Shown: positions 15,442 to 47,029 of the stretch, piece after piece
How the letters are laid out: each line of letters starts with the position of its first letter
How positions within the stretch are numbered: the stretch's first letter is position 1
DNA from: Heliocybe sulcata
Lineage: Eukaryota > Basidiomycota > Agaricomycetes > Gloeophyllales > Gloeophyllaceae
Assembly (NCBI GenBank): GCA_004369045.1
Contig: ML213529.1
Span: 272,841-336,840 of the forward strand
Direction of reading: 5' to 3'
DNA length: 64,000 bases
Program-made: the position numbers and the translations under genes
The notes under the pieces: model-generated
The model's input: the letters and a program-made list of their open reading frames with translations, nothing else
The model's database searches: none
What the model was told of the DNA's origin: nothing

Positions 15442-15926
15442 GGTCGTTGGTGTCGCTCGCCGAGACAAATCGTAAGGTCAAATCGATGAGGAAAGGCTGA
15501 GATCTGACACACTAATGCCTGTCAAAACCAGTGGAAGCCTTGGTCGAGACAAGCACGCTATGGCCAAGCTGTGTAATCACGCACCGCCGTCTATTGACGG
15601 CGTTGATAGTGGCTATGAATATCGTTCAAGAGTACTGCATCCATAGAGTTCGATAATCGGGAGTCATCGAACCTCTGAAAAGTCCTTCACAATGCTTGCG
15701 TCGCGTCCTCGGTGCCAGAAAGTAGCAGCATTAATCCATGTCGTGGTTTAATCCAGCTCGGCGTTAACTTGAAGAAAGGCTTGAAGAAAGGATTTCTAGC
15801 GTGACACGTGCATCGTGTGACCTTGGCAGTGGCACCTCTTGTTCATCCAGGCAACGCACCGAGCTTTCCTTGCGCTTTTCATAATTCCCTCCAGGCTAGC
15901 TTTAACATCCTTGAAACTCCTGTGTT

Positions 15927-16885
15927 ATGTCTACTGTGGCGTCTCTTCTTCTAAGCCTGTCTCTTGTGTTCTCGGTTCAAGCCGTTGCAATAGACAATCT
16001 GAGCTATCTGGACGACGGACGCATTCTCCCTCGGAACGACAGTACTACGAATGCATACTACTCCGGTATCTTCCGTCGAGAACTACTCTGCAATACTACC
16101 ATAGAAGACAGTGACTCCTTTGGCTCTTCTGGCATCGACGAGCTGTTCTTTGCCCGGACTCCTACAACCTCTGTGGATCTGCGTCCGACTCCGGCTCCTA
16201 CTGGCGACTCCTCGGGCCTGACTACGGTGCACGTCACTAACCAGAACGACTTCTCGCTTTTGATGCCCAAAGCTGGAGGTACGCTCGAAGCGGCAATACT
16301 GTTACGCTACTTATTCTTACCGAGGGCTTTTTCTTCGTTTGTAGAGATGATATCCGACGCTGAGCACGACGGATCGACATTCTGCACGCCGAGGAGCCAG
16401 GCACCTGGGTGTAACAAGAGACTTCCAGACGGTCTCATCCGTGCGGCTGCTGTTGAGCGGGCATCAGACGGGTCTTGGGTTCAGGTGCGTCTCCTCATGT
16501 CAAGCTCTACGACATCTGCTTGACATGCTCGAAGGTGACCGGATGCTTGGACTCCTCCAAGTACCCCTTCGCCTCTTCAGACGACGGCGGTCAATTCGAT
16601 GTCCGCTTCCCCAACGGCGCGCAATGTACCACGGGTGGATACGGTGCCAGTTTCATTGAACAGTTCGTCCCTCCTATACCTTCTTATTTTATCCTTAATG
16701 TCATTCGCTTTCCTATCTCTCCCTTTCTTCAAAGGATCGAGCCGACTGCGAACCGCTTCTGCTTGCGCTGCTGCTCCTCCAAGAATGACCAAGAGAACTG
16801 CAACTCCCATCAAGACAAGTCTGGCTGTCTCGTCGCTGTCCCTGGGCAATACGATTTCCGCGAGCTCGGTGTTCACTGCTCCTAG
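15927..16885 (+). CDS. Secreted cysteine-containing protein, copy 1
   Basis: Four exons (15927-16278, 16345-16484, 16535-16662, 16735-16885) give 256 aa. The first 20 residues are a classic signal peptide (MSTVASLLLSLSLVFSVQAV). After a Thr/Pro-rich stretch, the mature part carries HVTNQNDFSLLMP, ISDAEHDGSTFC, VTGCLDSSKYPF, DGGQFDVRFPNGAQC, GYGASFIEQIEPTANRFC and a terminal Cys-rich segment (RCCSSKNDQENCNSHQDKSGC). The layout matches a family of uncharacterised small secreted proteins of agaricomycetes. Even cysteine spacing suggests disulfides in the cell wall or medium. The apparent frameshift at 16485 is a 50-nt intron. Function unknown; I infer extracellular location only. Confidence 0.85.
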
Positions 16886-17465
16886 AGTCGACTTCTGTCT
16901 GGCGCCCGTTTTCCAACTGTCCAACTGTTTGGCCGTGGCCCGTTGCTCTCCGCTACTATCAACTTTTTGTGTCGTGTTTGCCTGCGTCCTCTTGTACTGT
17001 TTGTTTTGTCCTCTGTAATCACTATTACCTGCCTTTTGTGACCGCTATCGGGACTACGACGTGACTATGCGCCTATATTACAAGGTTTGATACTTTCCTC
17101 AGCTCCGCGTCTTCGCATCAGTTCGGCTGCCATGTTCATGCCCGCCTCCCCTCCGGGCATAAGCGACGACCTCCCTTTGTTGAAGACGAAGCGCACACCA
17201 CTAGGTTTAGGCACTCTACTTTGTCATCGGAGCTCCTCGGTCGGCTATATTGAAAGCATATACTTCCGAACTTGAGCGTCTTGTCGACCAATCGTGGTAA
17301 TGTCATGTGGCATTGGTCGGGCGGTAACGTCACGTGGCGTCCGTCGGGGTCACATCGACTTGTTATGTTGGCCACACGCTGGGTCAACGCCATCAGGAAA
17401 GAGGCATATGCGTGCCATCACTGTCGCCCAGTTCGTACCCTTTATTCAAGCCAACAGTCGCGCCG
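16886..17465. other. 3' flank of copy 1 and remnant of the FunK1 N-terminal exon
   Basis: The first 250 bases are the 3' UTR-like flank, about 95% matched by the right arm. From about 17370 to 17445 the sequence matches the segment upstream of the full-length kinase around CAGTTCGTACCCTT (right arm about 41.0 kb). The match then jumps to the middle of that gene near 17463, so roughly 0.8-1 kb has been lost here. Confidence 0.6.
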
Positions 17466-19344
17466 ATGGAGCCGATCCCTCTTGAGTTCAAGATGCCAGT
17501 GGAGGTTGTGGATGATTCTTGTACGACTACAATGCCTGAAGCTAGCAAGAATGACGTCCCTAGCAAGAGACGAAAGTCAGGTAGCGGCGCGGAAGTGCCC
17601 TCCAAGCAGTCAAAGGCAAACCCGAGACCGAAGACCAAGACGCAGACCAACTCACGTAACACCCAGTTTGGTACGGATGCCGGCGAGAGTGATCATGACC
17701 ATAATTCACGGCCGACAAAGTTCGCTCCCGATGCACAGGTCGTTGTCTACGCTTCTCAGCGTCTCTCCTCATCTGTCGCGTTCACACAGTCTTTCCGGCT
17801 CATCATACGCGGTGTGCATTTCTCTTTCTCTCGAGTAGTCCGTTTGTGGCTCTGACTGTTGACTGCGTACAGATAGTATCATCTCAGTACAGTGGTTTGA
17901 CCGGTGTTCGGCGATCGTGTCCGACGGCATCGATCTCGTCACTAACTTGCCTCATCTTGTAGTTCTGCTCGTCAACGCCCAGCACCTCGATGAGCACGCC
18001 TGTGTGGGACTCGCACTTCGCAAGAGAGCGCTGGACTTCTGGCTCGCCGCTGACTTTACTCAGCCAGGCATACCTTCCAGACTCAGGCTGACGCTCGACG
18101 AGACTGAGCATGCCCTGGATCTCTATCCTACTAGTCACAGCAGAGATGCCGGCCCTGCGACGAGCTCTGACCAGCACCCGATCGTGCCAGGCGCATCTCT
18201 TGGCTTCGTCACAAACCTTTCTCGCCTAGAGGAACACCATAACAGCGAGGCGCGAGTATTTGTCAAGGAGTATCAAGTCACTCGCCACGGTACCGAAGAC
18301 AGCAAACGTATTCACGGTTACTTCCCGATTTTACGCGCTTCCGACGTTCATAACAATGAAGGCACGGAGTGGAAGGTGAAGGTATCCAGTCCCAAGAAGG
18401 AACACCAATGTCGGCTCCTCCACGTGCTGTCTTTTGCAAGAATGGAGTACATCCATAAACTGTCTGGCGAAGAATTCATGAGCGCGTTCAACGATTGCTT
18501 CCGCTGTGCGTGTTTCCCGAACAGTTCACACGTTCCGTGCCGTGCTAATGTCACTTGCAGGCCATGGCCATTCCTGGCTGAACGGCATTCACCACCAAGA
18601 CATCTGCCCGAACAATCTACTGTTCACCTGCGTGGGCGGGTACGTGGTTGGCGTCTTAAATGACTTGGAGATGTGCATTGTCCGCAGAGACAGCAGTTCT
18701 CCTGAATATGAACGGACTGATACCGCCCTGTTTATGGCTTATGCCCTACTACGGGCGTTTGGAACGGGCGACTCGGTTGCGCACCTCTACGGTACGTCCC
18801 ATTTCGGATTTGATTCTGGCGGACTCAGGAGTAACTCTTTCTGCCAGAGCACGATGTAGAGTCGTTTGCATACGTGGGCCTGTGGATCTGTGCTCGCTAC
18901 AAGAAGGGCGAGGTTACAGTGCACGGTGCGTATTGGGACTGGACAGACACAATTGGTCCGGATTTCATAGCGGGAATGAAGCGCGGCTGTCTGGCGGATC
19001 CTGAACCTGCGACCGAGTCACACACTAGACATTTTGCAGCCATTAAAGCTCTCACCCGGGAGGCAGACTTTTCTATAGCCAGGAACATGTATCCGGGTGT
19101 GTTTGGACCTCCCGATACGCCGAAAGCGTACTTTGAGCGCCTGCGCGGACTCTTCGATACCGAAATCAAGTCTATGGACCCGGAGTATGACGCCTATATG
19201 CAAGCGGTGGAGCGCATTATGGATGACTATCGAGTACCTTATGTACTGGGCCTTTGGCGCAGTTGGCAAGGTATGTCCATAACCTTGTCGCCCTATTTAT
19301 CAATGCCGAACATCATCTGCATAGGTGACGGACAGGTTAATTGA
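17466..19344 (+). CDS. FunK1 fungal-type protein kinase, N-terminally truncated (copy A)
   Basis: Five exons (17466-17811, 17873-18505, 18561-18791, 18848-19270, 19325-19344) give 550 aa in one open frame. Seen: Lys/Ser-rich segment (KNDVPSKRRKSGSGAEVPSK), core entry YASQRLSSSVAFTQSF and QWFDRCSAI, FVKEYQV, catalytic loop HHQDICPNNLLF, metal-site region GVLNDLEMCIV, and C-lobe ESFAYVGLWICARY. FunK1 (PF17667) is an expanded basidiomycete kinase family of unknown substrate. Compared with copy D, about 250 N-terminal residues are missing because of an internal deletion, and HRD has become HQD and DFD has become DLE. The catalytic Asp is kept. It converges tail to tail with copy B. Activity is uncertain; expression would need a new promoter or the upstream remnant. 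Confidence 0.75.
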
Positions 19345-20037
19345 TAGTTCCCTCTTGTCAAGACGATTGCAGTAGTACCCGTTGTGTCCTCCTTGCTACA
19401 TTGCCCAGTATTCATTGCATTGGTACTCTTCGGACCCAGTCACGTGTAGCTATATGAAAGCAGGGGAGGTAGGCCACCGCAGAACATGGCGTTTTCACGC
19501 ACCCATTTGTTACTTCTCGGAAGTGGACTTCACGCGTCAACGGAGAGAGCACATCGACCGTTTCAGTCGCGCCAGTTCGGCCTGTCGTTTACTTGACTAA
19601 CAGTAGTGACTGGCTAGGGCAGATCCATCCACCATCCCCGGGATACCTACAAGAGCAATCTAATATTGTTCAATGCACCTCAGCCAAACTGCCAATTCTT
19701 CACGTGGGCCGTTACCCTCCCGAGGAGGAGTGCATTATGATGATTATAGACACAAGGGGCGCTCGAACATGCACCACCGCAAAACCCCAATCATTCGCCT
19801 CTGCATTATACTGCACACCGATAGCTTTGTCTCCCCTCATACCAAACCCCCGCTTCTGACACTCCACAGCCGTGTTCGCCCACCGCCTCGGTACGTCCGG
19901 GTCGTCTTTCCACATGACGGGTTGATAGAAGATCTATCACAAAGGCAGGAGAGGATGTGAGGACCGAACAACGAGGACAAGGAAGAGGAGGTAAAAGCAA
20001 CAAAACACATACCCCGTGAGTGAGGGCGTGTCGCGGG
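19345..20037. other. Spacer between converging FunK1 copies A and B
   Basis: The right arm carries the same segment in mirror image (38.29-37.59 kb). It contains two shared blocks: one beginning at the kinase stop (GATAGTTCCCTCTTGTC...), and a GC-rich block that holds the small conserved frame listed separately. Confidence 0.6.
19712..19927 (-). other. Small conserved frame beyond FunK1 copy B
   Basis: After an intron-like stretch ending GTGATAG, a frame reads IFYQPVMWKDDPDVPRRWAN...KAIGVQYNAEANDWGF. The right arm has the same frame on the plus strand at about 37.69-37.86 kb (IFYQPDMSKDDPDVPRRWAN...RAIGVQYNAEANDWGF). Differences are a mix of silent and replacement changes. It may be an extra exon, a separate small gene or a relic; no domain is recognised. 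Confidence 0.3.
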
Positions 20038-21793
20038 TCAGAGTAAATAGGGCGGCAAGGTTGTGGACATACCTTGCCAACTGCGCCAAAGGCCCAGTAC
20101 ATGAGGTGCTTGGTAGTCCTCCATAATACGCGCCACCGCCTGCAAATACTCGTCATACTTCGAGTCCATAGACTTGATTTCGGTATCAAGGAGCCCGCAC
20201 AGGCGCTCAAAGTACACTTGAGGAGGTTCAAGAGGTGCCTCCTGGCGGCTAGACTGTTCAACACCTCTCTCGTCAGCCCTGCTTATACAACGGCTTGCCT
20301 CCAGCGTGAGAGCCATAATGGCTGCAAAGTGTCCAGTGTGTGACTCGGTCGCAGGTGCGGGGCGCGTCAGATGGCCGCGTTTCAGTCCCGCTATAAAGGG
20401 TGGAGCGACTGTGGCCATCCAATCCCGGTATGCACCGTGCACTGTAAGCTTGCCTTCCTTGTAGCGAGCACAGATCCACAGGCCCACATACGCAAACGAC
20501 TCTACGTCGTGCTCTGGCAGGAAGAATTACTCCCGAGTCCGCCAGAATGCAATTCGAGATGGGACATACCGTAGAGGTGCGGGACCGAGTCGCCCTTCCC
20601 GAGCGCCAGTAGGAGGGCATAAGCCATGAACGGGATGGTACCAGTCAGTTCATATTCAGGAGAACTGCCGTCTCTACGGACAATGCACATGTCCAAGTCA
20701 TTCAAGACACCGACGACATGCCCGCCCACTCGAGTGAACAGTAGATTGTTCTCGCAGATGTCTCGGTGGTGGATGCCAATTAACCAGGAACGGCCATGGC
20801 CTGCAAGTGACATTAGTACGGCAGGCAAGGTCTGAGCCGTCGAGGAAACACGCACAGCGGAAACAATCGTAGAACGCGCTCATGAACTCCTCGTTGGACA
20901 GTTGATGGATGTACTCCATTCTTGCAAAAGACAGCAGGTGGAGGAGCCGACATCGATGTTCCTTCCTCCTAGGCCGATATACCTTCGCCATCTGCTCAGC
21001 GCCGTCATCGTTATAATCGTCGGGTGTGCGTAAAACCGTCGAATGACCAGGAAGACGTTCGGTATCATCGTCATCACCACGAGCGACTTGATACTCCCTT
21101 GTAAATGCTCGTGCCTCGTCGTTGTGGTGCTCCTCTTTGCGAGAGACCTTTGTGACGACGCCGAGAGACATGTCTGGCGCAATCGAGTGCTGGTCAGAGT
21201 TTGTCGTAGGCGCAACGTCCATGCTGTGGGTCAAAGAACCGAGGCCCAGCGGAGGCGGTGTTTCGTCGAGCCTCGCACTGGCTATGGGGGGCAAATCTGG
21301 CCGAGAAAGGTCGGTGTAGGGCTGGCGGTCCTGCCCTCTCTTATTCTCGCGGAGGCACTGAACGATATCGAGCAGAACCACAAGGTAGTCCGCGACGAGG
21401 TCGATGCTATCAGATGCGATGATGGAACACCTGTCAATCCACCACAGTGAGACGGCACTATCTGCATGCCGTGAACTGTCAGAACAAGAGTTCGAGTACT
21501 AGTCAGAGAAAAAATAATCGCGCACCGTGCATGATGAACTGGAAAGATTGATTGATCGCGAGAGACGATAAGAGACGGTGGGAAGCGTAGGAGACGACCT
21601 GCGCATTGGGACTAGGGTCGTGATCACTCTCGTCGACGCTCATTCCGAACTCAGCGGTACGCGAGTTGCTCTTCGATCCCGGGTATGTCTTTGACCTCTT
21701 GAAGGGCACGAACGCATCGCTACCGGCCTTATGTTTCGTACCATTTGCACCACTCTTGCGCTCTGCAGGCACCGTATTCCACGGCATGTTCAT
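20038..21793 (-). CDS. FunK1 fungal-type protein kinase, N-terminally truncated (copy B)
   Basis: Four exons (21793-21526, 21461-20856, 20800-20570, 20513-20038) give 526 aa. It starts MNMPWNTVPAERKSG, then has the FunK1 core: SYASHRLLSSLAINQSFQF, LWWIDRCSII, FTREYQV, FARMEYIHQLSNEEFMSAF, catalytic loop HHRDICENNLLF, metal-site NDLDMC, and C-lobe ESFAYVGLWICARYKEGK. Here HRD is intact. Intron positions and phases equal those of copies A and D. The last small exon (GDGQVN) is missing: the ancestral donor is read through to a new stop at 20038. Upstream, a frame containing VADTLYKLLLSLDTPAG and IPLELQ aligns with the middle of copy D but is cut off by a stop, so the N-terminal third is lost. 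Likely expressed only if the start at 21793 is used. Confidence 0.72.
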
Positions 21794-21879
21794 GACCCTT
21801 AATCAAGCCTGCAATTCGAGAGGGATCGTCTTCTCCTGCCTTCCTGCTGGCGTGTCCAGGCTAAGGAGTAACTTGTAGA

Positions 21880-24800
21880 GGGTATCAGCTACTTCTGGTT
21901 CCGTGAGCGCCGAGGCACCCTATACCAGCCAATCCGTACCCGACCAGGGAAACGTCTTCAAGTAATGAATGATACAAGCATAGCAGAGTGGGTTGACGGC
22001 GTTGACTGGACTGCGTTGAACGAGACAGTACTCTTGTCTGATTCGTTCTGATTCGTTGCAGAAGAGATTGAGAAGAGATGCGGAAATTGCCGGCAAAGAC
22101 CCGAACCTCAGTGCCTTCTCAGCTCAGTCGCAAGGAGTATAGACGGTATAAAGTGTCTACAGCTCGGTCACATCGACCATACTAGACAATACGATGCGTG
22201 GTAGGGAGGCGATGTACCAAGTGGCATGACACCGTTCAGTCTCTGGCATACTTATATATCGATCATACCCTTGCAAGTGCATCAAAGACACACCCTGCCA
22301 GGCCTCGTACTTCCCAAGGTAAACAGACACCTCCTGGCTCTTCGACTGTCCTCGTCATATGCACGGCGTTGGTGATAAAATGCGCCTGGTACACTCAAGA
22401 ATGCCATGGTCCCGCGCTGCATCTTCCCGCTCACGTCTATCGTCTGCTCGCCCTCCCTTCTACATGGCTCCCAAACACCGCGTACACACTTGCCCGTCTC
22501 CCAGTCCACTTTGTAGGTCAGGGACTGTCGACGGAGCAGACGTACCAGTGTATCCTGGCCATGAAGCTCAGGAATGTGCGGGACATACAAGAATAGGAGT
22601 CTGACTCTGCCAAACACTCCTCTTCTACGTTCCGAGCGATCCTAGGCCTCGCTTTAGACACTTAGCCCCACGGGATAGCTAGAAGAGCAGGTTGGATTGG
22701 GAGCGATGCAGGAGGAGTATCGTCTAGCTTACAATTCAGATACTAGTCAGCTGTCCCAGTGCGCTGAGGAAGGAGGGTACCGATAACCGACTGAACTTGG
22801 CGTCGCGCTCAAGAAAGGTCTGTAATCGAAACTGTGGGCCGGAACGGAGTTCTCCGACACACGTCCTCGAGATGCCCAAGACATTAAGCGCCGTTGGTAA
22901 ACGTCTTCGTATCAAGAAACTTGAAGAGATCTTGGGCCCGTACACGCGAAGAAGACGATAGATGTCGACCACGGGAGGGACAGGAAGGATAGATGATTGC
23001 TTGAGGCCCAAGGGCGCTGACATCGGGCAACACGTCGGGACACCTGATAGTCGGGAGAGTAGGGATGCGTATATGAATAGACAGGCCTAGAGGACGTAAA
23101 GTTACTGTGGAACAGGAGGTATGAAGGACGAGGGTGTCGGTGCCGAGCGTCGCTTCAGTGAAACAGTCTCCAATGTGGTCGGCCAACATGATTTGGAAAT
23201 GCGGTATTGATCTCCACCGGTGGAACCACCACCACGACTCGCCGGACAAGGACTGGGCCGTTCTCCAGGAGCGGGATTTACGGTAGAGAACAGCTCACTT
23301 AGTAAACCGGGGCATGATCGGCGGAAATGACTACCACAGCATGGCCATAGAAGAGATTGCGCACCAACGTGAACCTGTCAAAGAACGTCAGGACACCAAA
23401 TACGACGTTGACCTGACGCACGGTAGCTCATAATGCCGACTCTGAGTTAGGCCCCATCTCGTTCGAGTGAGGCCCAACAGCTGGGCATTTCGCATGGAAT
23501 AATACAGTCTGCCGCACGGCCCTCACTGATCCAATTGTGCGTGTTGCGCGAAGGGAGTGGTGTGAAAAGCGACCTAAGAATACCGCGTCGGCGGTCAATA
23601 AAGGCAGGGACGAAGAAGAACACGCAGCAGGCGGACCATATGAGGCTGAAGAGGCCGTCTGTGTACGGTCAGTACGCAGGGACGGGTGTCGCACGCATGA
23701 AAACTTACAGGGTGGGATAGAGGAGCGCATGTTCCTCTTGCGTTGTTCGTCGTATTACAGACCGCGCTCAAAAGCACTGCAGGGTGTACAATTAGTGACA
23801 CAGTCGCGTGTCTCAACATTCAAACACTCACCTGCAAGACGTTATTGACACCTACGATGCGCGCATGGTGAGAACAAAACACGGGCTGTAAGAGCGCAAA
23901 GGCCGAAGTTATCTCAGAGACAGAAGTCGAAGCACACGCCGCAGTCTGGATCCTGCTTCCTGATACGCGTCGACCCCGCCTTTCACGCTGCCTTGCATTC
24001 CGATAGCCTGGTGGAGGAAGGAGAACACGTTGAGCGGGACCGAGGTCGTTACCCGACCTTCTTCTTTTCCACGCATCCCCCATCCCGCTGCTAGCCGACC
24101 CGCACCGCTGGCCGAGCAGTACCGCACGCATAGCTAACGTCTCCAGAAACGCACTCAGAGATTCGTTTCCATGCGTCTGCCTGATGCAACCCTACTCCAT
24201 ACACCTTGGTAATCGCAGGGAAGGCCTTTCCATGACGAGAATACGTTCCATGTCCATAAAACACACTTCCATTCGAATAGAAATAGAAGGAAAGACAGCC
24301 TATAAGTATAATCATAAAAGCGACCTAGTGACTGCTCACGAAAAGAAGTCGATCCCGCCGGTGCCCCAGTATTTTGCTCACGAGGCGTACGGTGCCTACC
24401 CTGATGACCAGAGCAGTGATAGCCGACGCGCTTTACGTGATGAGTACTGGACAGCCTGGGCGACGTTGTTTCCCGATAACTTCCTGGCTGTTGAACGCTG
24501 CAGAAATCCCTGCATGCAAGAGTTAGGATCGACGTCAGAAGCGGAAGACTTTGAATGGATGTTAAGTGCTCTCACTCATGCTGGAAGGCATGCATGATAC
24601 TCCCCAGGCGATTTATTGGTGGCGGAACAAGAGCAAAACTCAAACGCACCCATCCCATTGTAGAGGCACCGACGATCGATCCCCATACTTCCCACAAACA
24701 TAGTGAAATGGAAAGGTACACTCTCTCGTCTACGTCACCCTGAGAGCGTGACTTTTAATCAACCAGGAGGTGTTAGACTAGGCCGTCTTCGTATGCAGGA

Positions 24801-25500
24801 AAGCCGGACTTACCGGATTCCAAGGCACCTACAACCGCACAGCTTGAGGCAGTGTACCCTCGGGAACTGCTTGCAGCGGGATTCGACGTCGCAAGGTCAT
24901 AGACTCTTACTTGCCTCGACAAATCAGATATTGCGACCGGAATTAGACTCACAACATGGTCGGCTAGGATAACCTCAGAATGCGAGAGCGGAACAGGTGA
25001 AGGTTTGGAAGACGTATCGCTTAGCTATCCCGGGATGCACAGCAACGGTATCACGACTTGACTTTGATCTCCAAGTTCCATTGTCCTCGGTCGTCACAGC
25101 TGTTCGTCAGGCATGGGGGACGCTGCTAGACATGGTCGGCTAGGATAACCTCAGAATACGAGAGCGGAATGGGTCAAGGTATCGCTTAGCTGCACAGCCT
25201 GTCCCGGGATGGTATCACGACTTGACTTTGATCTCGAAGTCCCATTGTCCTCGGTCGTCACAGCTTTTCGTCAGGCATGGAGGAGGCAGCGTGTTTCTTC
25301 TTCCACCGTCCGAACGGATGAGGCGATGCGTCGCTAGTTTTTTTCCCAGCGGGAGTACGCTGGAAACCGGGCGAATCGAGATGGTATGGTTAATGTATCT
25401 GCCGGGAAGACGAGACAAGGCAATGAGTCGTAGACCCGCTCTCTGCCGTGTTTACTCCAGAGCTCAGCGGGAAGCGGAACGGACGACTGATCACTTGACA
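21880..25500. other. Left-arm region with no intact gene
   Basis: It aligns in mirror image to about 36.3-32.6 kb. Several frames resemble each other between arms (22736-23023 on the minus strand and 35465-35875 on the plus strand, sharing LKQ.SILPV and a VLG.SRTCVG motif; 23595-23819 minus and 34646-34800 plus, sharing MLRHATVSLIVH). Stops and frame changes differ between arms, so these are probably dead genes or non-coding DNA. A block at about 22.28-22.60 kb has no clear partner on the right and may be an insertion. Confidence 0.45.
24955..25281. repeat. Tandem duplication of about 150-176 bp
   Basis: Unit 1 (24955-25130) and unit 2 (25131 to about 25281) both start CATGGTCGGCTAGGATAACC and contain TATCACGACTTGACTTTGAT and TCCTCGGTCGTCACAGCT. 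In the right arm the equivalent sequences occur twice but about 570 bp apart (32.74-32.88 and 33.31-33.50 kb), so the duplication predates the separation of the arms or arose twice. Confidence 0.7.
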
Positions 25501-25519
25501 AGAGTCCAAAGGTTCGGAC

Positions 25520-32530: not shown

Positions 32531-33699
32531 AACCAAATCATCAGCGCTCAGCGCTCAGCACGCAGTTGAAGCCTTCGCCCGTTCCGCATCCCGGTGAGGG
32601 CAGGTCTACCACTCATCGCCTTGTGTCGTCTTCCTAACCGTAGTGCCTCGATTCGCCCGGTTTCCAGCGTACTCCAGCTGGGTGAAAAGCTAGCGAAGCA
32701 TCGCCTCATCCGTTCGGACGGTGGAAGAAGGAACACGCTGTCTCCTCCATACCTGACGAAAAGCTGTGACGACCGAGGACAATGGAACCTGGAGATCGAG
32801 TTCAAGTGGTGGTACCAGTGCTGTGCATCCCGGGATAGCTAAGCGATACGTCTTCCGAACCTTCACCTGTTCCGCTCTCGTAGGTCTTTCCGTCAACTAG
32901 GCCATATTCCAGTGACCGCATGTCGAGCCCTGGAGCCTTTTTCGCGCTCGAGTCTCGCATTCAGGACTAGTCGATCCAAGCCACCTATCGTGTCGACGTG
33001 CGAGGAAGTGCTGAGAAGCTGGTCCCCTCCACGCCGGCACGAACCTTGGTCTACCGTGGGTCGCAGCGAGCACCATCCATTCCACTCAACTTGCCAGTCC
33101 CCGGTGTCTCCCGTGCGTTCAGCAGGAGTAACTCGGAGGAGGCGGCTCTACCTTGCTTCCTAGCTGATGGGCAAACCGCTTGTCTAGCTTCGCACTGTCT
33201 CTTCCATAGTCATGCTAGGCGTATAGAGTTCGCTGTCGCCTCCCAGCTGGCTAGGAAGCTAGCGACGCATTGCCTCGTCCACGACTCTATCAGAAGGACC
33301 GCTCGGCTTCCTCCATGCCTGACGAAGAGCTGTGATGACCGGGAACCATGGACTGGAGATCGGATTCAAGTGGTGGAACACGCGCGCGTCGTATTAATTC
33401 GACCCTCCATTGCTGTGCATCCCGGGACAGGCTGTGCAGCTAAGCGATACCCTTCACCTGTTCCGCTCTCGTATTCTGAGGTTATCCTAGCCGAGCATGT
33501 CTAGCAGCCTGGTCGTGAGCCTAATTCCGGTCGCAATATCTGATTTGTCGAGGCAAGTAGGAGTCTATGACCTCGCGACGCCGAATCCCGCTGCAAGCTG
33601 GTCCCGAGGATACACCGCCTCGAGCTGTGCGGTTGCATGGTGCCTTGGAACCCGGTAAGTACGGCTTTCCTGCATACGAAGACGGCCTTGGTTGAACGC

Positions 33700-36330
33700 G
33701 AAATCACGCTCTCAGGGTGACCTCGACAGGAGAAAGTATACCCTTCTATTTCACTATGTTTGTGGAAAGTACGGGATCGATCGTCGGTGGCTCTACAACG
33801 GCATGGGTGGGTTTGAGTTTTGCTCTTGTTCCGTCACCGATACAACACATGGGGAGTATCATGTATGCCTCCCAGTAGGATTGAGAGCAATTAACACGTT
33901 GGCGTCCATTCGAAGTCTTCAGCTTCGGGCGTTGATTCTAACTCTGGTATGCAGGGATTTCTGCAGTCAGGAAGAACAACGCTGGCGGTCGCTCAGACTT
34001 CCGAGTATTCATCACGTAAAGCGCGTCGGCTATCACTCTTAAACACTGTGCCTCGTGAGCAAAATACTGGGGCACCGGCGGGATCGACTTTTTTGCGTAA
34101 GTGGCGACGACACCAGGACGCTGTTATAACTTACATTTCTAGGCTGTTTTACCTTCTATTCGAATGGAAGAGCATTTCATGGACTTGGAACGCATTCCAG
34201 TCATTTTCAGATCGTGAGGCTTTCATGCCTGCTATTGATGATTACCAAGGTGTAGTATATAGTGGCATTGCTCTCCGCGTCTCTGGAGACATAGCGAACC
34301 CGTTAGCTATGTACATTTGCGTGCGGGACGCTCGGCAACCGATGGCCTAGGCAAGGGGAGCAGTGCAGGTCGGCTAGCAGCGGGATGGAGGAAGCGTGGA
34401 AAAGAAGAGGTCGGGTAACGACTCGGTCCCGCTCAACGTGTTCTCCCTCCTCCACCAGGCTATCGGAATGCAAGGCAGCGTGAAAGGCGGGGTGGACGCT
34501 TATCAGGAAGCAGGATCCAGACTGCGGCGTGTGCTTCGACTTCGTCTCTGAGATAACTTCGGCCTTTGCGCTCTTACAGCCCGTGTTGTGTTTTTTCACT
34601 TACGCGCATCGTAGGTGTCAATAACGCCCCGCAGGTGAGTGTTTGCATGTTGAGACACGCGACTGTGTCACTAATTGTACACTCTGCAGTGCTTTTGAGC
34701 GCGGTCTGTAATACGACGAACGACGCAAGAGGAACACGCGCTCCTCTGTCCCACCCTGTAAGTTTTCATGCGTGCGACGGTCGCGACCGTCCCGTCCCTG
34801 CGTACTGGCCGTACACAGACGGCCTCTTCAACCTCATCCGGACATGATCAGTCCGCCTGTTGCGTGTTCTTCCTCGTCCCTGCCTGCATTCACCGCGGAC
34901 GCGGTATTCTTAGGTCGCTTTTCACACCACTCCCTTCGCGCAACGCGCACAATTGAGTCAGTAAAGCCCGTGCGGCAGGCTGGTGATTCCACGTGAGTGC
35001 GTAGCTGTTGGGCTCACGTCTATCGACTTGGCATGTTGCACAAATGAGATGGGGCCGCATTATGAGCCAAGGTGCGTCAGGTCAACATCGTATTTGGTGT
35101 CTTGACGTCCTTTGACAGGTTCACGTTCGTGCACAATCTCCTCTATGGCCATGCTGTGGTGGTCATTCTCGCCGATCATGCCCCGGTTTACTGAGTGAGT
35201 TGTTCTCTACCGTAAATCCTACTCCTGGAGAACGGCCCAGTCGTAGCCCGGCGAGTCGTGGTGATGGCTCCACCGGTGGAGATTATACCCGCCTTCCAGG
35301 TCGGAATGCTTGCCGACCACACTGGAGGCTCCCGTCCACCCAAGCGACACTCGGCACCGACAGCATCGTCCCTCATGTTGCGCGGTAACGTCCTACTCTA
35401 GGACTGTTTCTTCGTATGCGCATCACTACCCTCCCGACTATCAGGTGTCTCGACGTGCCGCCTGATGTCAGTGCCCCTGGCCCTCAAGCAGTTATCTATC
35501 CTTCCTGTCACTCCCTTGGTCGACATCTGTCGTCTTCTTCGCGCGTACGGGCACAAAGTCTCTTCAAGTCTCTTGATATGCAGAAGGTTACGAACGGTAC
35601 TTGATGTCTTGGGCGTCTCGAGGACGTGTGTCGGAGGACTCTGTGCCGGCTCACACTTTCGATTACAAACCTTTCTTGAGCACGACGCCAAGTTCAGTCG
35701 GTTATTGGTACTCTCCTTTCTCAGCGCACTTGGGCAGCTGAGCATCTCAAAATGCGAGTTACACGCGGATCCTGCTCCTGTATCGTGTCTGACTCAACCT
35801 GCTCTCCTAGCTATCCCGCAAGGCTACATGACACGGCGAAGACTGGGATTTCTCGAGGGCGGAGTGTGTCTCTGATGCATTTGCAAGGGTATGATTGATA
35901 TCCGTGGCCCTATAAGTATGCCAGAGATTGAAAGTTGTCATGCCACCTTAATCCCCGTCGCCTGGCCTCGCCAACATACATTGTATCGTCTAGTGTGGTC
36001 GCTGTCTCCGAGCTCTGTATACTTTTGTGTCGTCTCCGCTCCTTGCGATCCTGCTTGAGCTGAGAACGTGAGCGAGAAGACGACACCGAACGAATGCTGA
36101 ATGCCGCAGAGGAGAGGGGCACGACTACCCAAGAGTAGTGTCTCGTTCAACCCAGTGCAGTCAACGCCGTCAACCCACCCTGCTATGTTTGTATCGTTCA
36201 TTGCTTGAAGAAGGTTCCCAGGTTGGGTAAGGATTCGCTAGTATAGGGGTGCCTCGGCGCTCATGGATCTAGAAGTAGCTGATACCCTCTACAAGTAACT
36301 CCTTAGCCTGGACACGCCAACAGGTAGGCA
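33700..36330. other. Right-arm region with no intact gene
   Basis: Mirror of about 21.8-24.7 kb. It contains frames 33949-34350 and 35465-35875 (+) that have partial counterparts in the left arm but no recognised domain and no consistent exon structure in both arms. Confidence 0.45.
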
Positions 36331-36337
36331 GATAAAG

Positions 36338-37589
36338 ATGATCCACTCGAATTGCAGGTTTCATAAGGTCATGAACATGCCATGGAATACGAGGCCTGCA
36401 GAGCGCAAGAGGGCTGCGAATGGTACGCAGCACATGGCCGGTAGCGACGCGTACGTGCCCGTGAAGAGGCCAAAGACAAACCCGGGATCGAAGACCAACT
36501 TCTGTACCGCCGAGGCTGACATGGACGTCGACAGCAGTGACCATGGTCCTAATTTACAGCCGATCAACTCGTCTCCCAATGCGCAGGTCGTCTCCTACGC
36601 TTCCCAGCGTCTCTCATCGTCTCCCGCGATCAAACACTCTTTTCAGTTCGTCATACACGGTGTGCACTTATTTTTCTTTGAGTAGTACTCGAACTGTTGT
36701 ACTGACAGTTCGCGGCATGTAGTTAGTGACGTCTCACTATGGTGGCTTGACCGGTGTTCGGCGATCGTGTCCGGCAGCATCTATCTCGTCACCGACTTGC
36801 CGCACCTTGTACTTCTGCTCGTCATGTCCCAGCGGGGTGTAAACCGCTTGTTTGGCAACAGAGCTCTTCTCCGCTGGCCAGGCGTCGACCTTACTCAGCC
36901 AGGCATACCTTCCTTACTCAGAGCGACGCTCGACGAGACTGAGCATACCCTGGACATCCTTCCTTCTAGTCACGGAACAGATGCTGGTCCTGCGACATGT
37001 CCCGACGAGCACCCGATCGCGCCAGGCATGTCTCTCGGCGTCGTCGCAAACATCCCTCGCACAGAGGAGCACCACAACGACGATGTGCAAGCATTTGCAA
37101 GGGAGTATCAAGTCGCTCGTGGTGATGACGATGATACCAAATGTCTTCCTGGTCATTCACCGGTTTTACGCACATCCGAGGATCATAACGATGAGGGCGC
37201 TGAGCAGATGGCGAAGGTATCTCGGCCTAGGAAGGAACACCGATGTCGGCTCCTCCACGTGCTGTCTTTTACAAAGATGGACTACATCCATAAACTGTCC
37301 AACGAGGAGTTCATGAGCGCGTTCTACGATTGTTTCCGCTGTGCGCATTTCCTGGACGGTTCAGACCTGCCCTGCCGTACTAATGGCATTTGCAGGCCAT
37401 GGCCGTGCCTGGTTAATTGGCATCCACCACCGAGACATCTGCCCGAACAATCTACTGTTCACCCGCGTGCGCGGGTATGCGATCGGCATCTTGTACGACT
37501 CGGAAATGAGCCTTGTCCGTAGACACGCCAGTTCTCCTGAATATGAACGGACTGGTACCATTGGAGGAAGCGAAGGAGCAGAGAGCTGA
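36338..37589 (+). pseudogene. FunK1 kinase fragment truncated at both ends (copy C)
   Basis: Three exons (36338-36659, 36723-37340, 37396-37589) join in one frame of 377 aa with the same intron phases as the other copies. It has VMNMPWNTRPAERKR, SYASQRLSSSPAIKHSFQF, WWLDRCSAI, FAREYQV, YIHKLSNEEFMSAF and the catalytic loop HHRDICPNNLLF. The metal-site motif is altered (GILYDSEMS in place of NDFD). The frame leaves FunK1 homology right after YERTGT, so the entire C-lobe is missing. The junction is followed by the GC-rich block that also lies beyond copy B. A stop upstream (AAGTAACTCC) separates it from the lost N-terminal region. It is probably inactive as a kinase. Confidence 0.7.
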
Positions 37590-38286
37590 CCCGCGGTACG
37601 TCCTCACTGACGGGGTATGTGTCTCGTTGCTTTTACTTCCTCTTCCTTGTCCTCGTTGTTCGGTCCTCACAACCTCTCCTGCCTTTGTGATAGATCTTCT
37701 ATCAACCCGACATGTCGAAAGACGACCCGGATGTACCGAGGAGGTGGGCGAACACGGCTGTGGAGAATCAGAAGCGGGGGTCGGGTATGAGGCGAGACAG
37801 AGCCATCGGTGTGCAATATAATGCGGAGGCGAATGATTGGGGTTTTGCGGGGGTGCATTTGGGCGGTCCTTGCGTCTATAATCATCCATAATGCACTCCT
37901 CGTCGGGAGGGTAACGGCCCATGTGAAGAATTGGCAGGTTGGCTGAGGTGCATTGAGCAATATTAGATTGCTCTCGTAGGTATCCCGGGGATGGTGGATG
38001 GATCTGCCCTGGCCGGTCACTACCGTTGGTCAAGTAAACGACAGGCCGAGAATGGCGCCACTGAAACGGTCGGTGTCCTCTCTCCGTTGATGCGTGAAGT
38101 CCACTTCCGAGACGTAACAAATGGGCGCGTGAAAACGCCATGTTCGGCGGTGGCCTACCTCCCCTGCTTGCATATAGCTATAGGTGACTGCGTCCGAAGA
38201 GAGCCAGTGCAATGAATTCTGGGCAATGTAGCAAGGAGGACACAACGGGTAACTACTGCAATCGTCTCGACAAGAAGAGGGAACTA

Positions 38287-40949
38287 TCAATTAACCTGTC
38301 CATCACCTATGCAGATGATGTTCGGCATTTGTAAATAGGGCGACAAGGTTGTGGACATACCATGGCAACTGCGCCAGATGTGCAGTACATGAGGTACTTC
38401 GTAGTCCTCCATAGTACGCTCCACCGCTTGCATATACACATCATACTCTGGGTTCATAGACTTGATTTCGGTATCGAAGAGTCCGCGCAGGCGCTCAAAG
38501 TACGCTTTCGGCGTATCAGGAGGTCCCGCCACGCCCGGATGCATGTTCTTGACTATAGAAACGCTTGCCGCCTCGGCGAGAGCTTTAGTGGCTGTAAAGT
38601 GTCCAGTGTGTGACTCGGTCGCAGGTTCGGGGCGCGTCAGACAGCCGAACTTCATTCCCGCTATGAAATCCGGATCGATCGTGTCTGTCCACTTCCGGTA
38701 CGCACCGTGCACCGTGACCTCGCCGTTCTTGTAGCGAGCACAGATCCACAGGCCCACATACGCAAACGACTCTACGTCGTGCTCTGGCGGAAAGATTAAC
38801 TCCTGACTCCGCCAGAATAAACTTCGAGATGGGACGCACCGTAGAGGTGCGCGACTGAGTCACCCGTTCCGAACGCCCATAGGAGAGCAGAGGCCATAAA
38901 CGGGATGGTACCAGTCCGCTCGTTTGCGAGAGAACGGCCTTCGGCATGAATGACCGACAAGTCGAAGTCATTCAAGACGCCAACGACGTGCCCACCCCTC
39001 CTAGTGAACATCAGATTGTCCTCACTGATGTCACGATGGTGGATATCGTTTTGCCAGAGAACACCATGGCCTACAGGAGTCATTAGCAAGCCAAGGAAGG
39101 TCTGAACCGGCCCGATACACTCACAGCGGAAACAATCGTAAAATGCGCTCATGAACTCTGCGCCAGAGAGTTTATAAATGTGTTCCAAATGTTCAAATAA
39201 GAGTACGCGGAGGCGGCGAAAACAGCGCCTTTTCCCATCCCTGGATATGCCCAGGATCTTCGTCATCCGTTCAGCATATTCGTCGTCAAAATCGGCCGAA
39301 GCGCATAAAATCGGTAAATGACCGCGAACATGTTTTGCGTCTTTGTCACCGCTGCACGCTACACCATACGCCCTTGCAAGTACCCGCACCTCACTTTCCC
39401 GTCGTTCATCCGGGTGATAGATCTTGGCGACGAACTTGGAAGAGGAGTCTGGCAGGGTCGGGTGCACATCAGAGCTTTCCACATCGATAACGTCCGTGGC
39501 ACGACCAAAGAGATGGAGTGCCCTGGCATGCTTAGCTTCCTTCAGTGTTACTGTGATTGAACGTGCGTCTGGCGTGGCAAGGTCGATCTCGAGCTCGCCG
39601 TCAGGCGTTTTGCGAAATACGCGATTAGAACCCCAAGCGTGCTCGTCGAAGCGTCGGAGGATATCTAGAACGACCACCAGGTACGGTAGATTGGTGATGA
39701 AATCGAACCCGCCGGATCTGATCGCCGAACACCGGTCAAACCACCACAGCGAGATGACGCTATCTGCTCGTGGTCAACCGTCAGAAACACAGGTGGCCAA
39801 CTGAAAAGAACCCGAAGTGCGCACTGTTTATGATGAACTGGAAAGAATGGTTGATCGCGACCGATGATGAGAGGCGCTCGGAAGCGTAGATGGCGACCTG
39901 GACGTCGGGAGACACCTTCGTCGGCTGTTGATCAGGGTCCCTCTCGTGGACGCCTATCTCGTACTGAGCAGTGCGCAATTCGCTCTTGCTCTTGCTCTTG
40001 CTCTTGCTCTTCGTCTCCGGTCCCTCTCTCGACTTTGACTTCTTGGAAGGCACATCCGCGCCGCTACCTGACTTTCGTTTCTTGCCAGGAACGTCATTGT
40101 TGCTAACTCCAGGCATCGTAGTAGTCCCAGATACATCCACGTCCCCCTCTGCTATGTTGAACTCGAGAGGGATCTGCTCCATCGGCGTGTCTGTTCGCTT
40201 GAATTCCAGACTAACTAGCGTTTTGTCGAAGGCAGGGGCTTTTTCCGATTTCTTGAGCGCCGGGCCAATCCTATGCTTCTCCCAGAGATCATCCCAATTC
40301 TCACCGGGCGCCAGCTGCAGTTCAGCAGCTTCTTTGACAGTAAGAAGAGCATCACGGAGCATTAATCCCACTACATCAGGCTTGCGTTTGGTGGTCTCCG
40401 CGAGGAGGCAGCCATCGGCGCCTACGTGTTCTGAAAGGATTTCCGTCGGGTCATTGCACTGGAAGACCAATTGGTTCTCTTGCCCAGAGGCGGGGGGAAG
40501 ACAGGCCACTGACGTCGGATCACGCCTCGTCTTCTTGATAGCCAGAATGGTGTTAGCCAATTTGCAGAAGGGAGCGTATTCTTGTTGTTCCGTCTTCGTT
40601 TGACGACTGGAAGAATTAGACCAAGGATAATGAATCAAAGAGAGATGACGTACAATTCGGCCAGTAACTCCTGGAGCCCGTGTATCTTTCCTCCGATACT
40701 GTCCTCAGGGGAGGCACTTCTGGCCTGGTTGGCGATGGGAAGCGTTTTGTGTTCATTGCACATTATAACAGCATCCAGGAGTAACTCGTCGAGGATGGAC
40801 TCGAGTTCCACCTTGTCCTTTTCTTTCGTTTCCGTGAAGAGGCTCAGGAGGAAAAGGAGGAAGGTTCGGACAGACACGTCCTCAACGTGTTTCTTCATCT
40901 GCTCTTCATAGTATGGTCTTACCTGTTTAACCCTATATTTCGGAGGCAT
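38287..40949 (-). CDS. FunK1 fungal-type protein kinase, full length (copy D)
   Basis: Six exons (40949-40654, 40606-39825, 39763-39125, 39070-38840, 38783-38361, 38306-38287) give 796 aa. N-terminal part: MPPKYRVKQVRPYYEEQM and a helical region, then a linker with Lys/Ser dipeptides (SKSKSKSK). Kinase core: SERLSSSVAINHSFQFIIN, WWFDRCSAIRSGG, VLARAYGVAC, YKLSGAEFMSAFYDC, catalytic loop HHRDISEDNLMF, metal-site GVLNDFDLSVI, and C-lobe ESFAYVGLWICARYKNGE. Catalytic HRD and DFD are both intact, unlike the other three copies. FunK1 (PF17667) kinases are expanded in multicellular basidiomycetes; substrates are unknown. An upstream frame from 41104 (MEPPTTPPGSAASLNPSN) aligns with the left arm and might be an additional first exon, but no good splice was found, so 40949 is preferred. 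Confidence 0.85.
39984..40013. repeat. Hexanucleotide repeat GCTCTT inside copy D
   Basis: About five GCTCTT units code for a Ser-Lys dipeptide run on the minus strand. Copies A, B and C lack it, so it expanded after duplication. Confidence 0.8.
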
Positions 40950-41199
40950 GAGGTTTATGACGAATCGTCCTCCAAGCGATGAAGGGTACGAACTGGCCAG
41001 TAGTGAAGGTGCGCGTATTTCGTTTGCCCGGTGGCGTTGACTGGATCGGGTTCGACGGGTTCAACGAGGCTGCAGACCCGGGGGGCGTGGTGGGCGGTTC
41101 CATCTGTACTCGAAGAGCGTGTGGGCAACGTCGAAGCGTGTGGGCAACGTCGAACGAATGGGCGCCCCCTGAGCGCGCGCGACAACGCCACATGAGATT

Positions 41200-42055
41200 C
41201 CCACGATTGGTGGTGTGAACTTTTGAAGGTCCGACACGACGGTCCTACATTAGCTAGCTATTTTCCCATTCATCCACCCCATTCATCCACCGACGAGAGT
41301 TGGAATAAGCGTCGAAAGGATCGCGAGACCAAACGACGATGAGGACGGGCACCGGGTGAAAAGCAGGGGGGCTCCGATAGAATTCTGACCACTTCAGTGG
41401 CGTGGCGCACTGCGCACTGCGCAGCCTTCGAGCGACACTCATCCCCGGACATGCTCTTAGCCGGGGTGCCAGCTGAGCGCTGAAGTGTCAAGAGGTGCGC
41501 AGGAAGCGGTGCCAGCTTGACACGCAATGGGTGTAGAGCTATAGGGATATTCAATGTCGCTTCATGAATAAGTGGCTCTCTGTCAGCAACGGAATAGGGA
41601 TGCATGTTAGTGTATGTACCAACCCTATGAATCTCAACTCGATGACGAATGCAAGAAAATCATTCAAGCTCAGAAGCGTATGCTCTTCAATGTAGCTAGC
41701 TGCCTATCAAGCTCCGTCGGCAAAGTAAAGTACCTAAACCTAGTTGTGCACTTCGTCTTCAATAGAGGGCAGACCATTGCTGATGCATGATGACCGGAGG
41801 GGAGGCGTGCAATTAATGGCAGCCGAACTGATGCGAAGACGCGGAGCTGAGGAAAATATCAGACCTTGTAATATAGGCGCGAAGTCACGTCGTAGTCCTG
41901 ATAGCGGTCACAAACGGCAGGTAATAGTGATTATAGAGGACAGAACGGACAGTACAAGAGGAGGCAGGCAAACACGACACCAAAAAGTTGATAGTAGCGG
42001 AGGGCAACGGGCCACGCCCAAACAGCTGTTGGAAAACGGGCGCCAGAAGTCGACT
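41200..42055. other. Spacer between FunK1 copy D and secreted-protein copy 2
   Basis: 41.74-42.05 kb mirrors the 3' flank of copy 1 (for example CTATTGAAGACGAAGTGCAC). 41.2-41.65 kb has no clear left-arm partner and no gene. Confidence 0.5.
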
Positions 42056-43014
42056 CTAGGAGCAGTGAACACCGAGCTCGCGGAAATCGTATTGCCCAGG
42101 GACAGCGACGAGACAGCCAGACTTGTCTTGATGGGAGTTGCAGTTCTCTTGATCATTCTTGGAGGAGCAGCAGCGCAAGCAGAAGCGGTTCGCAGTCGGC
42201 TCGATCCTTTTAGGAAAGGGAGAGATAGGAAAGCGAACGACATTAAGGATAAAATAAGAAGGTATAGGAGGGACGTACTGTTCAATGAAACTGGCACCGT
42301 ATCCACCCGTAGTACATTGCGCGCCGTTGGGGAAGCGGACATCGAATTGGCCGCCGTCGTCTGAAGAGGCGAAGGGGTATTTAGAGGAGTCCAAGCATCC
42401 GGTCACCTTCAACTGTCTCAAGCAGATGTCGTAGAGCTTGACATGAACAGACGCACCTGAACCCAAGACCCGTCTGATGCCCGCTCAACGGCAGCTGCGC
42501 GAATAAGACCGTCTGGAAGTCTCTTGTTACACCCAGGTGCCTGGCTCCTCGGCGTGCAGAATGCCGATCCGTCGTGCTCAGCGTCGGATATCATCTCTAC
42601 AAACGAAGAAAAAGCCCTCGGTAAGAATAAGTAGCGTAACAGTATTGCCGCTTCGAGCGTACCTCCAGCTTTGGGCATCAAAAGCGAGAAGTCGTTCTGG
42701 TTAGTGACGTGCACCGTAGTCAGGCCCGAGGAGTCGCCAGTAGGAGCCGGAGTCGGACGCAGATCCACAGAGGTTGTAGGAGTCCGGGCAAAGAACAGCT
42801 CGTCGACGCCAGAAGAGCCAGAGGAGTCACTGTCTTCCATGGTAGTATTGTAGACTACTTCTCGAGGGAAGATACCAGAGTAGTATGCATTCGTAGTACT
42901 GTTGTTCCGAGGGAGAATGCGTCCGTCGTCCAGATAGCTCAGATTGTCTATTGCAACGGCTTGAACCGAGAACACGAGAGACAGGCTTAGAAGAAGAGAC
43001 GCCACAGTAGACAT
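42056..43014 (-). CDS. Secreted cysteine-containing protein, copy 2
   Basis: Inverted paralogue of 15927-16885, with the same four-exon structure, signal peptide and length. Intron 1 looks identical to that of copy 1. Differences are few and clustered around residues 50-65 (PREVVYNTTMEDSDSSGSSG here). All cysteines are kept. In intron 2 the 3' end differs (GACAGTTGAAG in place of GACATGCTCGAAG) but the acceptor AAG/GTGACC is the same. The high identity, including introns and 3' flank, contrasts with the weaker similarity of the inner palindrome. Confidence 0.85.
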
Positions 43015-43626
43015 AGCACAGGAGTTTCAAAGATGTTAAAGCTAGCCTGGAGGGAATTATGAAAAGCGTAAGCAAAGCTCGGTGCGTTGGCTGGATGAAC
43101 GAGAGGTGTCACTGCCAAGGTCACACGATGCACGTGTCACGCTGGAATTCTTTCTTTTAACAACGCCTCTGAGACCGAGCTGGATTGAAAACCACGACAT
43201 GGATTAATGCTGCTACTTGCTGGTAACGAGGACGAGACGCAAGCATTGTGAAGGATTTTCCAGAGGTTCGGTGACTCCCAATTATCGAACTCTATGCATG
43301 CAGTACTCTTGAACGATATTGAGAGCCACTATCAATATTCCGTTAACAGACGGCGATGCATGATTACACAGCTTGGCCATAGCGTGCTTGTCTCGACCAA
43401 GGCTTCCACTGTTTTCGACCAGGCATGGATGCCAGAGTTTTCGCCGCGTTAATACTGGAGAACCATCTTTATCCGAGAGGTGATGTTGTTTTGTGGAGCT
43501 CTATGTTAAGAGACACTGACTATGCTAACCTTATTCATGTCAACACAGCCTCATCATAGACGCCCCGCCATCATTCGCCAACCGTGTGCACATTTGCTAG
43601 TACACTCGGACATGGCTCTCTGAAGC

Positions 43627-45008: not shown

Positions 45009-45240
45009 TACTGGATATGGAGGCCGATATGTGGCAGGATCGCGGTATCAGGGCAGCGGTGACTGGCATTGGAAAGATTTGGGGATCGTGGATAAGACGT
45101 AAGGCGAGAGAATAAAGCATGGCTATGTACGTACTCGTTTGGATATTCCAGTGCTATCATCGTTTCTTCGTACAAGAAGGCGACATCGACTGAAGGCGCA
45201 AATAAAAGAAAGAGAAGGACTATCACAAGGATGCATGTCC

Positions 45241-46818: not shown

Positions 46819-47029
46819 GCTCTACAGCATAGGGTAAGGAGAGACGCGGAGGGATCGATCGCATGCTGTGTTGCTCTGCTATTTGTCCGTGTTGTCGATG
46901 TCGCTGTGGCACTAACAATCGTACAACATTAAGGACCGGAGACATATGTCAATTACATGTCAAATAAATAAGTAGCTGCTATACTCGTGAGTTGTAGTCG
47001 TAGAACCCATTAGATCGCTCATTAATAGC

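Follow-up and report, generated by a model that had tools for sequence, protein, structure and literature searches.

A nested inverted duplication of FunK1 kinase copies near a chromosome end of Heliocybe sulcata, with patchwork identity between its arms

How does a block of fungal kinase copies come to lie in mirror image around one unique gene, and what has happened to the copies since? We address this in a stretch of 64,000 nucleotides from Heliocybe sulcata contig ML213529.1 (the window, whose positions are used below), in which a first-pass annotation had described a palindrome with mirrored gene order. Minus-strand self-BLASTN blocks and the arm alignment bear this description out. Arm A (15515-27491, plus strand), delimited from both sources and from a comparison of the outer edges, is matched to arm B (30437-43426, minus strand), delimited from the two alone, by blocks at 15515-17275/41664-43426 (92%), 17444-20041/37586-40204 (78%), 20635-22299/35858-37561 (78%), 22633-25123/33306-35855 (79%) and 25157-27414/30578-32882 (78%), all with E=0, and at 27405-27491/30437-30514 (77%, E=2.5e-8). 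The order is a secreted-protein gene (+), FunK1 copies F1 (+) and F2 (-), a decayed block, the unique centre, a second decayed block, F3 (+), F4 (-) and the secreted-protein gene again (-). Within each arm, the two FunK1 copies in turn form a convergent inverted pair (20044-21730 matches 17574-19299 at 74% in self-BLASTN), and the palindrome is thus nested. The decayed blocks, also defined by self-BLASTN, span 22300-27414 (+) in arm A and 30578-35857 (-) in arm B, and a genome search finds 22633-27414 of arm A solely in the two arms. The spacer between the arms (27492-30436, about 2.9 kb) is unique, with an identity of 0.34-0.46 between its halves and a GC content of 62% within 28001-30000. 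It holds one DUF6699 gene, single copy between the arms (28148-29332, minus strand; PF20415, E=2.9e-29 on ORF 28148-28795), the 5' end of which is our reading of the sequence. An Rfam scan of the window at gathering thresholds gave zero family matches.

Homology between the arms stops at about 15515/43426 on the outside and at 27491/30437 on the inside. Beyond the outer limit, tblastx of 10000-15514 against 43427-49500 yields zero matches at E<=0.01 (the same settings give 53 hits between F1 and F4, the positive control), and tblastn places 0 of 48 left-flank ORFs (at least 60 aa) in the right flank. In the arm-to-arm alignment (15515-27414), 1,795 of 10,797 aligned pairs differ (~83% identity) and indels are many, a degree of divergence that agrees with the earlier view that the structure is not a simple assembly reflection. 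Telomere-type repeats stand at the end of the same contig (C27), ~57 kb beyond the palindrome, which is thus subtelomeric and near a real chromosome end.

We consider it probable, from the sequence comparisons that follow, that the locus is an inverted segmental duplication in which conversion acts in patches. A subtelomeric stretch of ~12-13 kb, with the secreted-protein gene, the convergent FunK1 pair and the non-coding block, would have been copied in inverted orientation across the DUF6699 gene, in what we infer to be one event. The arms would then have diverged through point changes and indels, the secreted-gene part would have been overwritten through recombination between the arms, and the outer FunK1 of arm B would have recombined with a third FunK1 copy ~94 kb further in.

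The gene copies differ in their state of preservation. The secreted-protein gene is intact in both arms, with four exons at 15927-16885 (+) in arm A and 42056-43014 (-) in arm B, and the positions and lengths of the arm A introns (16279-16344, 16485-16534 and 16663-16734) are matched in arm B. It is called secreted for a signal-peptide-like start, judged by eye; a Pfam scan of two of its pieces returned no family, and a genome search finds two copies only, one per arm. Between these, dS is 0.067 and dN 0.016, and by the resulting dN/dS of ~0.23 the gene looks constrained. For the kinases, frame breaks and the 5' coding block were scored by tblastn and alignment against a longer FunK1 on contig C9. 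By this comparison, F1 (17444-19344, +) has two frame breaks and an altered active-site motif, F2 (20044-21730, -) has an in-frame stop and two frame breaks, and F3 (36440-37561, +) has one frame break and lacks its 3' part. The earlier description of the kinases as duplicated holds for the FunK1 copies as such, but F1, F2 and F3 (3/4) are frame-broken relics in which the 5' block is unmatched, and only F4 (37586-41260, -), which is chimeric and matches 3/3 C9 pieces, is near full length. Relative to C9, the reading frame across the kinase domain is interrupted in all three relics, and also in F4 and the third copy, by one break each ~50 codons past the DFD motif, although splicing may bridge this one; an open frame bears on function more than on membership in the family.

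Family assignment follows partly from profiles and partly from similarity among the copies. F4 matches Pkinase_fungal (PF17667) within 38880-39764, at 55.9 bits against a cut-off of 24.1, and F2 has an HMM match to the same profile at 20607-20837. Among the matches listed, F1 and F3 have none of their own and are assigned to FunK1 through their similarity to the other copies. Since the profile also matches control genomes (4/14, with 2 above the cut-off, among the matches listed), weak profile hits alone are no proof of FunK1. The active-site motif carries a serine (HRDIS) in F4, the third copy and the C9 copy, and a cysteine in F1, F2 and F3.

Along the arms, identity changes in sharp steps: the secreted gene stands at 96%, the initial part of the outer kinases at 69% and what follows at 90%. 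We resolve 13 segments in this mosaic, the first split giving a dlogL of 105 versus at most 8.2 in 100 shuffles. The longest identical run between the arms, 242 bases at 16135-16376, compares with at most 67 in 200 shuffles and covers the whole of the secreted-gene intron at 16279-16344. Within 17640-18800, shared sites among F1-F4 number 48 for F2 with F3, 26 for F1 with F3 and 12 for F1 with F2, and the F1/F3 sites are clustered rather than spread, the statistic being reached in 9 of 5000 shuffles. This interval replaced a wider test (111, 28 and 14 sites; 1/2000 shuffles) that took in a poorly aligned stretch before 17600. Because the shuffles assume equal rates everywhere, coding constraint inflates their significance; sharp steps under this equal-rates null are also found across non-coding sequence. 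Gene conversion at the palindrome, which the first-pass annotation had raised, gains support from the mosaic, the 242-base run and the F4 tract described below, and we infer that the steps probably stem from conversion and not from double crossover or replacement. RIP-like or CpG decay is not supported as what made the arms diverge: CpG observed/expected is 1.01 for arm A and 1.06 over 44001-62000. Transitions between the arms at CpG/TpG or CpG/CpA number 236 of 1,007 as a raw count.

The third FunK1 copy lies on the same contig, further in (C27:216.6-220.2 kb). The F4 tract at 38727-41258 (-) is 98.1% identical to C27:217620-220158 (49 differences in 2522), after which identity falls to 82.8% (159 in 925), with a step at 38727 (G=239 versus a maximum of 20.7 across 500 shuffles). 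F1 versus F4 rises from 68.4% to 90.2% at 38878, so that one gene contains two steps in opposite directions. The drop against the third copy falls near the arm-to-arm jump, the sharpest step of the mosaic, which suggests ectopic gene conversion or exchange as its source. The near-identical tract also extends beyond the first matched coding block on its upstream side (40950-41260); at 41165-40950, F4 is 98-99% identical to the third copy. We take the third copy as the presumed donor to F4, and either of the two may have been donor or recipient of the 2.5-kb tract. The same tract bears on what had been reported as a deletion of about 0.8-1 kb in copy A. A block is indeed absent from arm A, but it is larger than claimed (B 40205-41663 versus A 17276-17443 in self-BLASTN), and most of it, 40205-41260, is common to the third copy outside the palindrome, while 41261-41663 is absent there. 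The absence is better read as at least partly a result of putative exchange between arm B and the third copy, with loss within arm A a possible alternative. At 17494-17636, F1 is 80% identical to F4, 78% to the third copy and 62% to F2 or F3, and given this closeness to F4 and the third copy, F1 may earlier have resembled F4 before being overwritten in its turn.

Could a single inverted duplication without conversion, with constrained coding parts and unconstrained relics, account for the varying identity? The intact and apparently constrained secreted gene does lie in the most similar part, and much of the decayed block shows lower identity. However, steps of opposite direction occur inside one gene at 38727 and 38878, the 242-base run includes an intron, and F4 is already nearly identical to the third copy before the first matched coding block begins; because of the F4/third-copy tract, we regard this account as unlikely. 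An assembly artefact, in which two haplotypes or repeat copies were wrongly joined, might be suspected from FunK1 matches of near-identical score on contigs C42 and C50, which are maybe unmerged haplotypes. Outer flanks that share no homology, a unique centre and numerous indels make a haplotype misjoin unlikely on sequence grounds, and with 1,795 of 10,797 aligned bases differing and the two arm blocks searched absent elsewhere in the genome, we hold an artefact to be very improbable.

The arms might instead matter as a natural hairpin: read-through from F1 into F2 would give double-stranded RNA, and this would silence the fuller FunK1 genes. In their convergent arrangement, F1 and F2 have 53 distinct 21-mers in common (longest exact match 39 bases). 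For F2, the number in common is also 53 against F4 and is 68 against the third copy; Piwi and RdRP matches occur in the genome. In wheat stripe rust, small RNAs arise from inverted gene pairs that lie tail to tail, and FunK1 is among the predicted targets (PMC4578785). F1 and F2 are only 74% identical, F3 and F4 share zero 21-mers, and 21-mer sharing, seen here at the DNA level, is expected for any paralogue pair, which leaves the hairpin with a small probability. Smaller still is the probability that the arms are copies, or ends, of a mobile element. They are inverted and flank another gene, and foldback-type elements occur in this genome, but neither of the two arm blocks searched occurs elsewhere, the 20 ORFs in the Pfam scan (most decayed-block ORFs lie outside it) include no transposase family, and a by-eye look at the outer edges revealed no target-site duplication. 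A more elaborate and unlikely idea is that chromosome-end FunK1 copies form a cassette-like system. Broken inverted copies would serve as stores, segments would be copied into fuller kinases by exchange that starts or ends in the conserved catalytic block, the variable parts of the kinases would be reshuffled, and hairpin RNA would perhaps silence them; F4 would then be a recent product.

Read as an inverted duplication with patchy conversion, the locus clearly adds a new case to a known route of gene-family evolution. Segmental duplications near telomeres that undergo ectopic gene conversion occur in fungi, Plasmodium and trypanosomes, and share with this locus a paralogue-rich block near a telomere, patchwork identity and apparent exchange with another, more distant copy of the contig. 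Unlike them, the two blocks here stand in inverted orientation on either side of one unique gene, and each is an inverted pair. Mammalian Y-chromosome palindromes, in which arm-to-arm conversion keeps company with arms above 99% identical, likewise have large inverted arms, a unique spacer and stretches of raised identity, whereas the arms here are ~83% identical with a few tracts near 95%. PMC3203195 describes a lineage-specific expansion of FunK1 in Coprinopsis and Paracoccidioides, located in non-syntenic regions, with a serine in the active-site region where other kinases have lysine. The copies here belong to the same family, and the serine in F4, the third copy and the C9 copy would correspond if, as we read that text, its lysine-to-serine feature falls on the HRDIS motif; its passages on the family do not describe an inverted or palindromic layout. 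The Puccinia striiformis inverted-repeat small-RNA loci (PMC4578785) are similar in their tail-to-tail paralogue pairs, but partners are less identical here, and the present comparison is at the DNA level. A literature search found no paper combining FunK1 with subtelomeric. What this one locus offers is a view of FunK1 copies arising, decaying and being overwritten, probably through inverted duplication near a telomere and ectopic exchange.

Other FunK1 loci share parts of this setting. On 14 contigs of 370 kb or more, a non-random sample, 16 of 35 FunK1 loci versus 6 of 47 P450 loci lie within 100 kb of contig ends; BTB matches are near ends as often as FunK1 (7/15), and the position is therefore not special to FunK1. 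Among the matches listed, neighbours on opposite versus same strands number 17 to 7 for FunK1 and 11 to 6 for P450 within 30 kb, and 11 to 4 and 5 to 5 within 10 kb, with F1 and F3 added by hand and loci merged by eye. On these counts, orientation alone does not stand out as a FunK1 signature. At the DNA level, inverted FunK1 copies are present at 7 of 10 loci examined (C6 27/35 kb, C35, C15, C29, C43, C6 143/146 kb and the present locus), a count that leaves out four further opposite-strand pairs. C6 125/128 kb has no inverted match, C26 329/333 kb a short one of 138 bases, and C26 252/272 kb matches of 309 and 80 bases in a comparison of 1.5-kb flanks only. An inverted copy occurs in one of four usable P450 controls (66%, gene length), which are weak controls: one is cut at its second gene and one has a gap in the retrieved sequence, and a fifth (C19) was dropped because its second gene lay outside the sequence retrieved. 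A Fisher test on earlier tallies (FunK1 7/9 versus P450 1/5) was not significant (p=0.09). If the recurrence survives proper controls, it would tie FunK1 family growth to palindrome-type recombination. A same-strand FunK1 pair on C24 gives direct matches.

Self-BLASTN of the window recovers a chain of minus-strand matches in which 15515-27491 (arm A) is mirrored onto 43426-30437 (arm B), confirming that the mirrored structure described in the first-pass annotation is real. Over 15515-27414, the arm-to-arm alignment contains 1,795 differences in 10,797 pairs (83.4% identity) and many indels. The middle 2.9 kb between the arms is unique and GC-rich (62% GC in 28001-30000) and includes a gene with a DUF6699 domain (Pfam, E=2.9e-29). 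A tblastx comparison of the outer flanks, 10000-15514 against 43427-49500, gives no hit at E<=0.01, with a positive control run. In the 31.63 Mb genome (51 contigs), where the window occupies positions 272841-336840 of contig C27, neither the secreted-gene block (15515-17275) nor the decayed block (22633-27414) has another copy at the search sensitivity used.

Segmentation of the arm alignment yields a mosaic of 13 pieces. Arm-to-arm identity is 96.0% at 15798-17135, 68.9% at 17136-18729, 89.5% at 18730-21109, 67.6% at 21110-21424 and 85.9% at 21425-22036, ranges from 74 to 95% in the decayed block, and stands at 90.3% in the innermost piece. The values of 25% and 54% in two short pieces probably represent misalignment rather than divergence. 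No identical run is longer than the 242 bases at 16135-16376 (at most 67 in 200 shuffles), a stretch that covers the entire first intron of the secreted-protein gene. This gene (15927-16885, plus strand; 42056-43014, minus strand) is intact in both arms, with four exons and GT-AG introns, and its copies differ by a dS of 0.067 and a dN of 0.016. Neither of two pieces of the protein matched a Pfam family, and a genome search with the 142-aa second piece found no copies beyond those in the two arms. CpG content bears no sign of RIP-like decay.

The four FunK1 kinase copies alternate in strand, F1(+) and F2(-) in arm A and F3(+) and F4(-) in arm B, so that each arm in turn consists of a convergent inverted pair. 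When 37560-41660 is used as the query, a third copy is recovered at C27:216.6-220.2 kb, approximately 94 kb inward and in the same orientation, with 92% identity across the main match, as well as a fourth, 70% identical, on contig C9; the third copy has no inverted partner within the surrounding 10 kb. Only F4 and the third copy match all three coding pieces of the longer C9 gene, the first of which is unmatched in F1, F2 and F3. These three also have in common a frame break upstream of the active site relative to C9 and a cysteine at the HRDIS position that is serine in F4, the third copy and C9. In addition, the frame of F2 is interrupted by a stop codon, and the 3' part of F3 is missing. 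A single frame break relative to C9, about 50 codons past the DFD motif, is common to F4 and the third copy, so that F4 is at most a candidate whole kinase.

F4 matches the third copy at 98.1% over 2,522 aligned bases (41258-38727) and at 82.8% over the next 925, whereas its identity to F1 is 68.4% up to 38878 and 90.2% beyond. These opposite steps make F4 a chimera: the 5' two thirds, together with upstream sequence, group with the third copy and the 3' third with the palindrome. Together with the intron-spanning identical run in the mosaic, this bears out the earlier suspicion of gene conversion. The first-pass annotation had also described a deletion in copy A; this reading is qualified in that the greater part (40205-41260) of the block concerned (arm B 40205-41663) lies inside the third-copy tract, with the remainder (41261-41663) outside it. 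The tract is most simply explained as sequence copied into arm B from the third copy. The opposite direction, from arm B to the third copy, combined with loss or overwriting on the arm A side, may also apply, because F1 at 17494-17636 resembles F4 and the third copy more closely than it does F2 and F3. At 17640-18800, informative sites among F1-F4 unite F2 with F3 in 48 cases, F1 with F3 in 26 and F1 with F2 in 12; the F1+F3 sites are clustered, the statistic being reached in 9 of 5000 shuffles.

The likeliest account of the palindrome is evolutionary, through duplication together with decay and conversion, the intact secreted-protein gene being kept as two near-identical copies; it is a further case of a process of known kind. 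It is also possible that the convergent FunK1 copies give rise to small RNAs: F1 and F2 are convergent, F2 has 21-mers in common with F1, F4 and the third copy, Piwi and RdRP matches exist in the genome, and small RNAs are described as arising from tail-to-tail pairs in a rust fungus (PMC4578785).

FunK1 copies in inverted orientation that resemble each other at the DNA level occur at 7 of 10 loci examined, the palindrome included: on C15 (5.9-kb arms, 93%), C6 at 27/35 kb (2.7 kb, 87%), C35 (several, 70-78%), C43 (1.5 kb, 75%), C29 (2.1 kb, 74%) and C6 at 143/146 kb (1.4 kb, 68%). The weaker of these barely exceed gene length, and at the remaining three loci inverted matches are short or absent. 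This recurrence is a lead rather than proof, because the P450 controls are few (of 4 that were usable, 1 has an inverted copy, at 66%) and do not differ significantly from the FunK1 loci. Both it and the chimeric F4 are for specialists to follow. Two inverted P450 genes, 66% identical over 2.2 kb, lie just left of the window (C27:261900-269593). A 2.5 kb self-inverted copy (69%) at C43:14750-17246 adjoins FunK1 matches, with more copies nearby, and a Piwi-domain match (C29:241680-242706) lies about 6 kb from the inverted FunK1 pair at C29:248-256 kb. FunK1 matches at C42:90161-91614 and C50:25779-27205 have near-identical scores, which may reflect either recent duplication or a haplotype left unmerged.

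C27 (373,661 bases) terminates in telomere-type repeats, TTAGGG and shorter variants, and the outer edge of the palindrome (C27:316266) is about 57 kb from this end. Among 14 contigs of established length (at least 370 kb), 16 of 35 FunK1 loci, 6 of 47 P450 loci and 7 of 15 BTB loci are located no more than 100 kb from a contig end, all locus counts being lower bounds. The FunK1 share exceeds that of P450 (p=0.001, overstated because the loci are clustered) and does not differ from that of BTB on these contigs.

Elsewhere in the window, a mitochondrial-type DNA polymerase gene (52031-56512, minus strand; DNApol_Exo and DNA_pol_A matches) has an ORF that overlaps a 24-base repeat array (52219-52494). 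A foldback-type element of about 1.38 kb (62288-63663) has halves that are inverted copies at 89.5% by self-BLASTN; a 713-base query from it has 36 genomic matches, one of which adjoins the C9 FunK1 gene, where there is an inverted pair of 782 bases, 99.5% identical.
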